Shown: one piece after another, positions 10,661 through 47,237 of the stretch
How positions within the stretch are numbered: position 1 is the stretch's first letter
Layout: each line of letters starts with the position of its first letter
Source: Mucinivorans hirudinis
GTDB lineage: Bacteria; Bacteroidota; Bacteroidia; Bacteroidales; Rikenellaceae
Length of the DNA: 64,000 nt
Direction of reading: 5' to 3'
Assembly: GCA_000723505.1 (NCBI GenBank)
Contig: HG934468.1
Span: 2,388,798 to 2,452,797, forward strand
Made by a program: the position numbers and the translations under genes
The notes under the pieces: model-generated
Told to the model about the DNA's origin: nothing
Seen by the model: only the letters and a program-made list of their open reading frames with translations
The model's database searches: none

Positions 10661-10739
10661 TAAATTTTGAAGTGAGAAATTTGAAGTTAGACTAATTATT
10701 GCACACTTCACACTTCGCACTCCACACTTCTATATAATT
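10661..10739 (+). repeat. Short tandem/inverted repeats between the two transketolase genes
   Basis: GAAGTGAG and GAAGTTAG on the left face CACTTCACACTTC and CACTCCACACTTC on the right. TGAAGTG (10668-10674) and CACTTCA (10704-10710) can form a stem. It is one of several intergenic inverted repeats with tandem arms in this window. Confidence 0.45.
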
Positions 10740-26841: not shown

Positions 26842-26900
<59 letters not shown>

Positions 26901-42260: not shown

Positions 42261-42278
42261 GAACTATAGTGCTTCTAG

Positions 42279-42329
42279 AACTAAGCGGGGGAAAGAATTA
42301 TTACAATAATTCTTTCCCCCCGCTTAGTT
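42279..42329. terminator. Strong bidirectional terminator between nifJ and the sigma factor gene
   Basis: AACTAAGCGGGGGAAAG on the left pairs with CTTTCCCCCCGCTTAGTT on the right, extended by AATTATT/AATAATT, giving a stem of more than 20 bp with a tiny loop. It separates the convergent nifJ and rpoD. Confidence 0.8.
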
Positions 42330-42355
42330 GTCAGCTTTTCGCTCACAGAAAATGC

Positions 42356-43216
42356 CTATCCCAGATATGATTTGAGCAGTTTGCTGCGCGAACCGTTGCG
42401 GAGTCGCCGTATAGCCTTCTCCTTAATTTGGCGCACCCGTTCGCGAGTAAGGCCGAACTTGTCGCCAACCTCCTCTAGGGTTAGTTCCGCCGTTCCGATT
42501 CCGAAAAAATACCTTATGATGTCTCTTTCTCGCTCGGTCAGGGTAGCTAATGCCCGTTCAATCTCAACCGAAAGAGACTCGTTAATCAATGCACGGTCTG
42601 CGTTGGGCGAGTCGTTATTTGCCAAGACATCCAAGAGCGTGTTGTCTTCGCCTTCTGCAAATGGCGCATCCACTGAAACGTGTCTGCCGGAAACACGTAG
42701 AGTGTCCGCAACTTTTTCGCGGGGGATATCAAGCACCTGTGCCAGCTCTTCGGGCGATGGTGTGCGCTCATTTTCCTGTTCAAATCGTGCAAAAGCCTTG
42801 TTGATTTTGTTGAGCGAACCAACCTGATTCAGCGGCAAGCGCACAATACGAGACTGCTCAGCCAACGCCTGCAAAATGGATTGACGAATCCACCATACCG
42901 CATAGGAGATGAACTTAAAACCACGTGTCTCATCAAATTTCTCGGCAGCTTTTATCAAGCCAAGATTACCCTCATTAATTAAGTCAGGCAGGGTAAGTCC
43001 TTGGTTCTGATATTGTTTAGCAACAGAAACTACAAAACGAAGATTCGCCTTGGTCAATTTCTCGAGTGCTTCCTGGTCACCCTTGCGGATTCGCTGTGCT
43101 AGCTCTACCTCCTCTTCGACGGAAATCAACTCCTCGCGTCCTATCTCCTGCAGATACTTGTCCAACGACGCACTCTCGCGATTGGTAATTGATTTTGTGA
43201 TTTTTAACTGTCTCAT
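42356..43216 (-). CDS. rpoD: Primary sigma factor, Bacteroidetes type
   Basis: Housekeeping sigma factor that recognises the TTTG/TAnnTTTG promoters seen throughout the window. The 286 residues are short because region 1.1 is absent, as in other Bacteroidetes. Region 1.2 is around [15 protein letters not shown]. Region 2 reads [18 protein letters not shown] and [16 protein letters not shown]. Region 3 follows, and region 4 ends LTREVRQI-like with [19 protein letters not shown]. It is upstream of, and on the same strand as, nothing else; the htrA gene precedes it across a repeat-rich gap. Confidence 0.96.
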
Positions 43217-43226
43217 TATTAGAATT

Positions 43227-43333
43227 TGTGATTTGTGATTTGTGATTTGGGGCTTGGGATTTAGGACTTGTAGGACTTATAGGACATTTAGGACTTATAG
43301 GTCGGCTCTAAAAATCACAAATCACAAATCACA
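43227..43333. repeat. Inverted repeat with tandem arms and tandem TAGGACTTA-type loop
   Basis: The arms are three copies of TGTGATT spaced by T: 22 bp at 43227-43248 and its exact inverse at 43312-43333. The 63-nt loop carries several near-copies of TAGGACTT (about 43261-43301). The right arm touches the htrA stop codon. Confidence 0.85.
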
Positions 43334-43334
43334 T

Positions 43335-44855
43335 TTATTTTGCTATCGTTCCGTAGCTCATACGTCTTCCATCAGGATAGATACCCTCCAAAAGCTCAAT
43401 ATCTTGGATATTTATACTCTCAAACTGCGCAATATTATTGATGGCAATATCGTTAATTGCAGTAATGATATACCCTACCTTTACTCGGCTTCTTGCCAAC
43501 AATCCGTCCGGAAGCAGAGAAATTACTTGTACGCCACCCTTAATGCTGAGCTGCTTCTTCTGAGCATCGGTCACGTTGTCAAACCTAGCGCCCAGGAATT
43601 TTGCCAAATCCAATTCCTGTTTGCGTACCACATCTGTGTTACCAGTCTTATTACGTAAAGTGACCTCGAAATGTTTCATCTCCCCATCTCTTTTTATAGA
43701 AATTTTTACTTTGTCGTTGGGGCGGTAGCGCGAAATGGTCTCATACACATCCGAAACTGAGTTTGTTTTCTGTTCATTGATGGAAATTAGCACATCCCCT
43801 TTCTTGATGCCCGCCGCCGCCGCAGCTCCATTCTCCACAACTTCACCTATGTATATACCGCCACGTTCTTTGATTCCCGCCTCCTTACCGAATCTTTCGA
43901 GCCAGTCGGCTGTGATTTCTCCCATCTGGATACCCAGAAATGCACGCTGAGCCACACCGAACTCCATTATATCCGCTACCACTTTGCGCACTATTGACGA
44001 TGGTATGGCAAACGAATAACCCGTGTATGAACCTGTCGGAGAATAGACCATAGTGTTTATGCCTACCAAACTACCGTCCAATGTGATTAGCGCGCCACCA
44101 CTGTTGCCTCGGTTCACGGCTGCGTCCGTTTGAATGAAAGATTCTATCTCCAACTTAGAATTTTTTTGCATACCCATAGTGCGTCCTTTTGCCGATACAA
44201 TACCCTGAGTTACAGTCGATGTTAAGCCATAGGGGTTACCCACCGCCAAGACCCATTCGCCCAGTCTAAGTGAATCCGAGTTACCAAATTGTAGAGTTGG
44301 CAAATTTTTGGCATCAATTTTGATAAGTGCAATATCGGTAGCCGGGTCAGTGCCGATAACCTTAGCCGTGTATTTTTCGCCGTCCGATGTTGTAACCATA
44401 ACTTCAGTTGCGTCCTCCACAACGTGATTGTTACTGACAATGTAACCGTCTTCCGAGATGATCACGCCGGAGCCACCACCGCGTTGCTCCTGATATTGGG
44501 GTGTTTGCTGCTGACCTTGTCCTCGATTACGGTTGGGGTTGCCGAAAAAGTACTCGAACATATCGTCGCCGCCGAATTGAGGCTGAACAATAGCAACCTT
44601 TTTTACTATTTCGATATTGACAACGGATTTCACACCTTTTTCGGCGGCTTGAGTGAAGTCGGGTAAGATGTTTTCCGTTAATGGGTTATTGACAAATTTC
44701 AGGTTGCTATCAACCCCGTTATCACCAACCGTGAAGCTGTAACCGCTATTTGTCGGGCTACAGAAATTAGTTGTAAAAAATGCACTCGCCCCTCCAACAA
44801 GAGCTGATGCAAGAATTGTTAATAATACTACTCGCTTTTTCATTTTTTTTGACAA
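43335..44855 (-). CDS. htrA: HtrA/DegP-family periplasmic serine protease
   Basis: Trypsin-like protease and chaperone for misfolded envelope proteins. The 506 residues start with a signal or anchor (KKRVVLLTILASALVGGASA). The catalytic triad is His144 (SNNHVVED), Asp174 (ATDIALIKI) and Ser252 (GNSGGAL). Two PDZ domains follow, at about 300-390 and 410-500, the first with AAAAAGIKKGDVLISI. A glutamine-rich LA-loop-like segment (about 105-125) is typical of the Do family. The stop TAA lies 2 bp from an inverted repeat. Confidence 0.95.
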   Translation of the reverse strand: MSKKMKKRVVLLTILASALVGGASAFFTTNFCSPTNSGYSFTVGDNGVDSNLKFVNNPLTENILPDFTQAAEKGVKSVVNIEIVKKVAIVQPQFGGDDMFEYFFGNPNRNRGQGQQQTPQYQEQRGGGSGVIISEDGYIVSNNHVVEDATEVMVTTSDGEKYTAKVIGTDPATDIALIKIDAKNLPTLQFGNSDSLRLGEWVLAVGNPYGLTSTVTQGIVSAKGRTMGMQKNSKLEIESFIQTDAAVNRGNSGGALITLDGSLVGINTMVYSPTGSYTGYSFAIPSSIVRKVVADIMEFGVAQRAFLGIQMGEITADWLERFGKEAGIKERGGIYIGEVVENGAAAAAGIKKGDVLISINEQKTNSVSDVYETISRYRPNDKVKISIKRDGEMKHFEVTLRNKTGNTDVVRKQELDLAKFLGARFDNVTDAQKKQLSIKGGVQVISLLPDGLLARSRVKVGYIITAINDIAINNIAQFESINIQDIELLEGIYPDGRRMSYGTIAK

Positions 44856-47027: not shown

Positions 47028-47237
47028 GAGTAGAGAGGGGTACAGAGATGGCAAGGGGGAGATAGAGGACACAGAGGAGACAGAGGACACAAAAAAGCAG
47101 GTAGCAAAAACACTTTTCAAAGAGACCTACCCGTCCTAAAAGTCCTAAAAGTCCTACCCGTCCTACAGTCCTAGCGCCCGCCCGCCCGCCCTACCGCCCC
47201 CCCCTAAAAAGTGCAAAAACAAAAAATAATATAAACA
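47028..47237. repeat. Low-complexity repeat cluster between lipB and recJ
   Basis: Three repeat kinds follow each other: GAGGACACAGAGGAGACAGA-type units (about 47062-47090), at least five GTCCTA-containing units (about 47132-47173), and GCCC runs (47175-47210). The GTCCTA units are the reverse complement of the TAGGAC units near 43261-43301. Confidence 0.8.

Follow-up and report, generated by a model that had tools for sequence, protein, structure and literature searches.

Within the window, by which the whole 64,000-nucleotide stretch of Mucinivorans hirudinis DNA analysed here is meant, the 118-nt gap between a gene for an htrA/degP-type protease and one for an rpoD-type sigma factor is almost filled by one repetitive element (table 1). 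The htrA product contains Trypsin_2 and PDZ domains (best NCBIfam match degP_htrA_DO, 1.9 bits below its cut-off), and that of rpoD contains the Pfam Sigma70 regions 1.2, 2, 3 and 4, with the listed NCBIfam RpoD models matched under their cut-offs. The arms of the element, 63 nt apart, are complementary at 22/22 positions, confirming the original prediction of three TGTGATT units facing their exact inverse over 22 bp. The heptamer array around the left arm extends slightly beyond it (43224-43249) and amounts to 3.7 copies; the right arm can be read as 3.1 copies of AAATCAC, and the match is 100% in both. The loop had been described as built of tandem units as well: the array is present (4.4 copies, consensus TAGGACTTA), but its unit is 9 nt and not 8 nt long, and the end of the loop is formed by a second motif, TAGGTCGGCTCTAA. 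The right arm does adjoin the htrA stop codon; from the end of the former at 43333 and the start of the latter at 43335, a single base separates them. Read on the mRNA, which corresponds to the minus strand for both genes, the htrA stop codon is followed after 1 nt by the TGTGATT arm, then by the loop and the AATCACA arm, and the rpoD start codon comes 10 nt further on.

Table 1. Coordinates of the repetitive element, of its neighbouring genes and of two further repeat-bearing gaps in the window.
Feature	Position	Strand	Evidence
Left arm, three TGTGATT units	43227-43248	+	inverted-repeat and tandem-repeat analysis
Linker between left arm and 9-mer array, 13 nt	43249-43261	+	sequence
9-mer array TAGGACNNN, unit order TTG, TTA, ATT, TTA; loop of the palindrome	43262-43301	+	
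Recurrent core TAGGTCGGCTCTAA, bridging the 9-mers and the right arm	43298-43311	+	
Right arm, perfect inverted copy of the left arm	43312-43333	+	
htrA/degP-type serine protease, upstream of the element in the direction of transcription	43335-44855	-	Pfam, NCBIfam
rpoD-type sigma factor, downstream of the element in the direction of transcription	42356-43216	-	Pfam, NCBIfam
Co-directional gap in a comparable format with another heptamer, an ACACTTC array ahead of the start and GAAGTG words following the stop; weak hairpin (z -2.0 to -2.2)	10661-10739	+	
9-mer family member in a co-directional gap, GTCCTA units at 47133-47173, no TGTGATT arms	47028-47237	+	

The RNA of the htrA-rpoD gap is predicted to form a hairpin of -31.7 kcal/mol (z -6.9), and none of 200 dinucleotide shuffles was equally stable. 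Comparison with Rfam yielded six matches to microRNA models, all far below the gathering score, and identification as a structured RNA of that collection was rejected. The likeness of TGTGA...TCACA to a CRP site also came to mind, and this reading was put aside. In the vicinity, 13 bases at the coding start of rpoD (43194-43206) are inverse to the beginning of the right arm (43309-43321, TAAAAATCACAAA), a possible microhomology between element and gene, and the convergent gap just below rpoD (42261-42355) holds a strong palindrome (z -7.2) resembling an ordinary bidirectional terminator.

The M. hirudinis genome, searched as one contig of 3,149,227 bases from one strain, contains the 14-mer TGTGATTTGTGATT 57 times on the plus strand and 71 times on the minus strand (128 in all, overlaps counted), while its reversed control is absent. 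This count, along with the fold z value and the shuffles, excludes a chance origin of the palindrome. The two strands carry the 9-mer pair pattern TAGGACNTNTAGGAC at 30 and 57 places, respectively, and its control at none. For the core, searched with up to two mismatches, 14 plus- and 23 minus-strand places were obtained against 5 and 11 for the reversed control, so that close matches alone are informative, and the whole-gap query matched 139 pieces of the genome. A catalogue, which is not a census, was compiled from 40 stretches fetched at matches and from the window, 100 of the 128 places of the 14-mer being among the matches listed; it comprises at least 59 array clusters. Of the 59 catalogued, 25 are two-armed, always with TGTGA first and TCACA second. 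That the ends have the TGTGA word in common follows from the way in which the catalogue was built; in unit and length they differ between loci, the unit counts of the two arms being very unequal at some loci (e.g. 2 versus 17), which is what slippage would produce. Nine-mers form part of the loop in 12 of the 25 two-armed copies and are missing from 13; six two-armed copies have loops that look unrelated by eye. Heptamers and 9-mers are combined in 18 clusters, one- or two-armed, some clusters are 9-mer arrays alone, and the core is joined to a TCACA arm in 14. The order of 9-mers TTA then ATT recurs in 6 of the 37 loci with 9-mers, that of the window included.

The 18 composites give pairwise scores up to 310 (median 127) within the element, and at most 25 and 22 (median 14) in the flanks 40-160 nt outside it, values to be read with no random control run. 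Likeness inside combined with unrelated-looking flanks indicates that the unit has been copied, and the repeat-spreading process initially suggested is borne out by these clusters and by the empty sites in relatives described below. Eight further 20-kb stretches of the genome, placed by hand once the catalogue was known and not at random, contained no copy. Elsewhere in the window, the gap at 47028-47237 holds AGAGGACAC words and a CGCC run besides its 9-mers, and fifteen exact TC dinucleotides (26844-26873), possibly a slippage site, lie in a gap between convergent called genes.

The position of the copies with respect to genes was defined by codon-based gene calls in which small genes can be missed (rpmD and rpmJ at first pass, for example). 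Without exception, the 25 two-armed copies of the catalogue are flanked by genes on the same strand (p = 0.004, on a background of 137 co-directional pairs among 171 adjacent gene pairs in 224 kb), and the other 34 clusters are found in 29 co-directional, 3 divergent and 1 convergent gaps and, in one case, within a called gene. A stop codon is present within 17 nt of the element start in 23 of the 25 two-armed copies and the next start codon within 29 nt of the element end in 20 of them, two of the five larger start distances being due to small genes missed by the gene caller. This link with co-directional gene junctions and the 10-nt distance to rpoD are features that the original prediction did not include. 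Four copies reside in the spc ribosomal-protein operon, in gaps of 109-120 nt that, judging from the sequences, we take to be rpsH-rplF, rpsE-rpmD, secY-map and infA-rpmJ.

For the comparison of the htrA-rpoD gap, 20 of 38 other genomes matched were fetched, 3 from the same genus and 17 from the same family. The ORF upstream of rpoD looks HtrA-like at its end in all 20 (by eye) and the gap measures 18-244 nt; neither TGTGATT nor AATCACA was found within 260 nt before rpoD in any of them, and several have ordinary-looking G+C-rich hairpins in the gap (by eye). Tandem pairs of TGTGA or TCACA were likewise absent from the spc stretches of 8/8 relatives and, with the sister species of the same genus (genome G002) set aside, 21 of the 28 gaps corresponding to the four element-bearing ones are no longer than 39 nt. 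The absence of the element from these gaps and the shortness of the spc gaps suggest a young insert, added to short operon gaps. A unique structure conserved across distant species, which would have pointed to a plain terminator, was not seen.

In some of these operon gaps the sister species has a similar format built of other heptamers. At secY-map, units of TGTGATT type in M. hirudinis correspond to facing AATTGAC/AATTGAT arrays in G002 (by eye) and, at rpmJ-rpsM, AACTAAA before rpsM corresponds to facing ATGCATT arrays; G002 also carries facing arrays of AAAATTC-like units before rpmD, in the rpsE-rpmD gap, and M. hirudinis ACGACAA before infA (units by eye in both species). When spc gaps of at least 40 nt were required to exceed 2.5 z in both hairpin and tandem signal, limits that we set ourselves, 5 of 8 gaps in M. 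hirudinis and 3 of 5 in G002 did so, as did none of 14 in the other seven relatives; the best period was 7 in 6 of the 8 and in 4 of the 5 gaps, respectively. Tandem heptamers directly upstream of start codons are present in both species; in G002, an ORF start follows the AATCACA repeats at a distance of no more than 28 nt in 7 of the 8 places inspected, out of at least 10. A survey by an automatic rule combining tandem and hairpin signals picked, in 224 kb of M. hirudinis, the element of the window and one period-11 gap and, in 120 kb of G002, two gaps, one with a clear facing heptamer array and one of period 12; no gap was picked in 120 kb of another genome (G011). The window gaps 10661-10739 and 47028-47237 show the tandem signal and miss the hairpin limit.

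Outside the genus, the exact two-armed TGTGATT pattern was found in six stretches of four genomes, namely a Parachlamydiaceae, a Cytophagales bin (two places), a Rickettsiales bin (two places) and Desulfonema magnum, with unrelated-looking loops. According to the ORF listing, five are between co-directional ORFs and one between divergent ones, and the distance to a start is at most 15 nt for some and larger for others; in one stretch of the Rickettsiales bin (L012, 7212-7311) the AATCACA arm appears to enter the start of a phosphatase-like frame. Other genomes of the class gave matches in 8 of 394, heptamer fragments at most, with two candidates scored per genome. Among 13 stretches fetched from other Bacteroidia, 7 had no array of at least three units by the rule used and 1 of the 6 arrays of that length precedes a start. 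In three stretches, from two genomes of one genus, AATCACA arrays lie near other short repeats with no ORF start within 150 nt.

The relation between the two arms of each copy was examined by permutation. Pairing a locus's own halves gives better matches than pairing halves of different loci, 44 of 20000 permutations being as good, and this was also seen for the loci with odd units in both arms (14 of 25; 105/20000). With the arms only, 723 of 20000 permutations were as good, and own partners ranked 11.7 on average, against an expected 12. On omission of locus 928443, the figure for the halves rose to 926/20000 and the own partner matched best at no more than 3 of the 24 loci; the arm-matching signal is fragile and rests largely on this one locus. 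Selection on the mRNA acting as pairing repair would leave G-U pairs on the sense strand, an expectation that is not borne out: wobble-type mismatches left in the arms number 11 on the sense and 27 on the antisense strand, next to 60 transversions, the values without locus 2361522 being 11, 19 and 44, with no clear difference, and fold energy does not differ between the two strands (p = 0.63). Compensation on the mRNA strand was, therefore, rejected as the force that pairs the arms.

As to loop orientation, TAGGAC belongs to the mRNA in 15 of the 18 co-directional composites; the other 3, among them the element of the window, have 9-mers that run against transcription, unlike most heptamer-bearing copies. 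Free inversion would not produce such a bias (two-sided p = 0.0075), and no bias is seen where 9-mer arrays occur without heptamers (6 to 10). Both loop orientations would also be expected from insertion in either orientation. In passages of earlier studies, template switching is described as homogenising arms and inverting spacers (PMC8604942) and as creating and maintaining hairpins (PMC8794818). As the process that keeps the arms paired in M. hirudinis, and thus for the strand switching put forward in the original prediction, it is weakly hinted at by the better match of own arms, a signal that shrinks when one locus is removed. The very unequal arms of several copies also count against it.

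Several families of bacterial repeats share features with the element. REP/BIME and REPIN sequences are, like it, dispersed palindromes between genes, and differ from it in that its arms are tandem repeats and in that the genome contains no Y1_Tnp (RAYT-type) transposase; with 0 matches to PF01797 at E 0.001, and the control matched in 5 of 14 genomes, a REP/RAYT system was rejected. The STRR heptamers of Cyanobacteria are also heptanucleotide arrays between genes, which to our knowledge are not known as facing pairs. No publication on these repeats in M. hirudinis was found by a literature search with subscription journals mostly outside its coverage. Passages of the report on TAACTGA repeats (MacGregor 2015; PMC4679880) place such heptamers in Beggiatoaceae, Cyanobacteria and some Bacteroidetes, as short intergenic arrays of patchy distribution that form larger heptamer assemblies in some Bacteroidetes and, in the genome studied in most detail, are mostly placed directly upstream of start codons. 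They are described there as direct repeats for which no RNA structure is predicted, one set in 170 being inverted (PMC4679880). In M. hirudinis, by contrast, facing arrays make up a palindrome between successive genes, part of the copies having a second repeat as loop. Porphyromonas gingivalis and M. hirudinis both belong to the Bacteroidales. The BrickBuilt MITE of the former is similarly depicted, in passages of PMC4596501, as dispersed and intergenic, with inverted ends, internal tandem repeats and variable repeat number, but with a 23-nt unit within leader and tail subunits, 12-bp ends, 4-nt target duplications and a distance of 49-591 nt from genes, where the M. hirudinis element abuts both of its neighbours. 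The inverted ends of the latter are, moreover, themselves tandem heptamers.

How such an element arose and what it does may be considered from several angles. An ordinary terminator or attenuator of htrA, repetitive by accident, would account for a strong hairpin one base past the htrA stop codon and for the G+C-rich hairpins in the same gap of several relatives. However, G or C occupies 6 of the 22 bases of each arm, no T-run follows the stem on the minus strand, the T-rich stretch after the right arm being on the strand that neither gene uses, and four copies of the family sit inside the spc operon. These features agree with the original prediction that the design is not that of a terminator alone and make this explanation highly improbable; a terminator scan of the gap returned 0 sites, but its loop limit of 8 cannot call a hairpin with a 63-nt loop. 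Transposition of a MITE-like mobile element would explain dispersed copies with inverted ends, internal tandem repeats and unrelated-looking flanks, in a genome with more than 200 phage or mobile-element ORFs (PMC4319616). It is made improbable by the 25 sites, at which no target duplication is evident by eye, by the two-armed copies lacking the 9-mer loop or having unrelated-looking ones, by the absence of a Y1_Tnp transposase, the only family searched, and by the distribution of matches beyond the genome, with heptamer fragments at most in the class genomes and in plasmids, and none in phages. Phage cargo was rejected as there was no match in phages, and plasmid cargo as matches were limited to pieces, in 2 E. 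coli plasmids, that cover no more than 37% of the query.

Alternatively, the element could be a selected RNA device, i.e. an intercistronic hairpin with its 3' arm over the start region of the downstream gene, opened by the ribosome terminating upstream and coupling or tuning translation, the format being kept and the sequence left free. The location of all 25 catalogued two-armed copies between co-directional genes fits this proposal, and so do the different heptamers in similar format in G002 (at secY-map and rpsE-rpmD, for example) and the closeness of its AATCACA repeats to ORF starts. Bacteroidetes lack Shine-Dalgarno sites and favour unstructured leaders, and structure over the region lowered a Prevotella reporter fivefold, whereas a hairpin at -21 left expression intact, according to passages of PMC3155529. 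Folding and wobble mismatches without a bias for the sense strand, the short corresponding gaps in relatives except G002 and the single array found before a start among the six of other Bacteroidia also argue against it, and we regard it as unlikely, if a more serious candidate than transposition. A reading that joins these elements, in which the format (facing heptamer arrays, with a 5' arm after the stop and a G-poor 3' arm before the start) would be inherited, the heptamer swapped across speciation, pairing renewed by template switching and translation of the downstream gene selected, appears rather doubtful.

The explanation that we favour, and to which we give about an even chance, is that of a lineage-specific dispersed repeat of short co-directional gaps, shaped by slippage and template switching and either tolerated or used as an intercistronic hairpin. 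Its heptamer arms face each other, with the 9-mer loop and the common core between them in roughly one two-armed copy out of two. It would have spread as a unit of about 100 nt, the dispersal itself being evident from the copies. At each site the arrays would then grow and shrink by replication slippage, as suggested by copy numbers and units that are specific for each locus, and the arms may be renewed as mutual complements by template switching of the DNA polymerase between inverted arms, a step towards which the arm comparison points faintly. The same process might occasionally flip the loop, an equally tentative step. In the transcript of the operon a strong hairpin would extend from just after one stop codon to just before the next start. 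With its 3' arm (AATCACA) free of G and resembling the unstructured leaders preferred by the ribosomes of Bacteroidetes, the insert may be tolerated in that position, and the hairpin may tune translation of the downstream gene. The arms are symmetrical between the strands, which argues against strong selection on the RNA, and tolerance is therefore ranked above use.

Long stems are hard to reach by single mutations, and template switching has been proposed as their origin on the basis of reconstructed histories, as set out in passages of PMC8794818. With dozens of heptamer palindromes, many with a unit pattern of their own, M. hirudinis offers replicate cases of such structures in one organism and at mapped positions. 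The presence of copies beside rpoD and ribosomal-protein genes also makes them a natural test of what translation in Bacteroidetes, which proceeds free of Shine-Dalgarno sites, tolerates just before a start codon.
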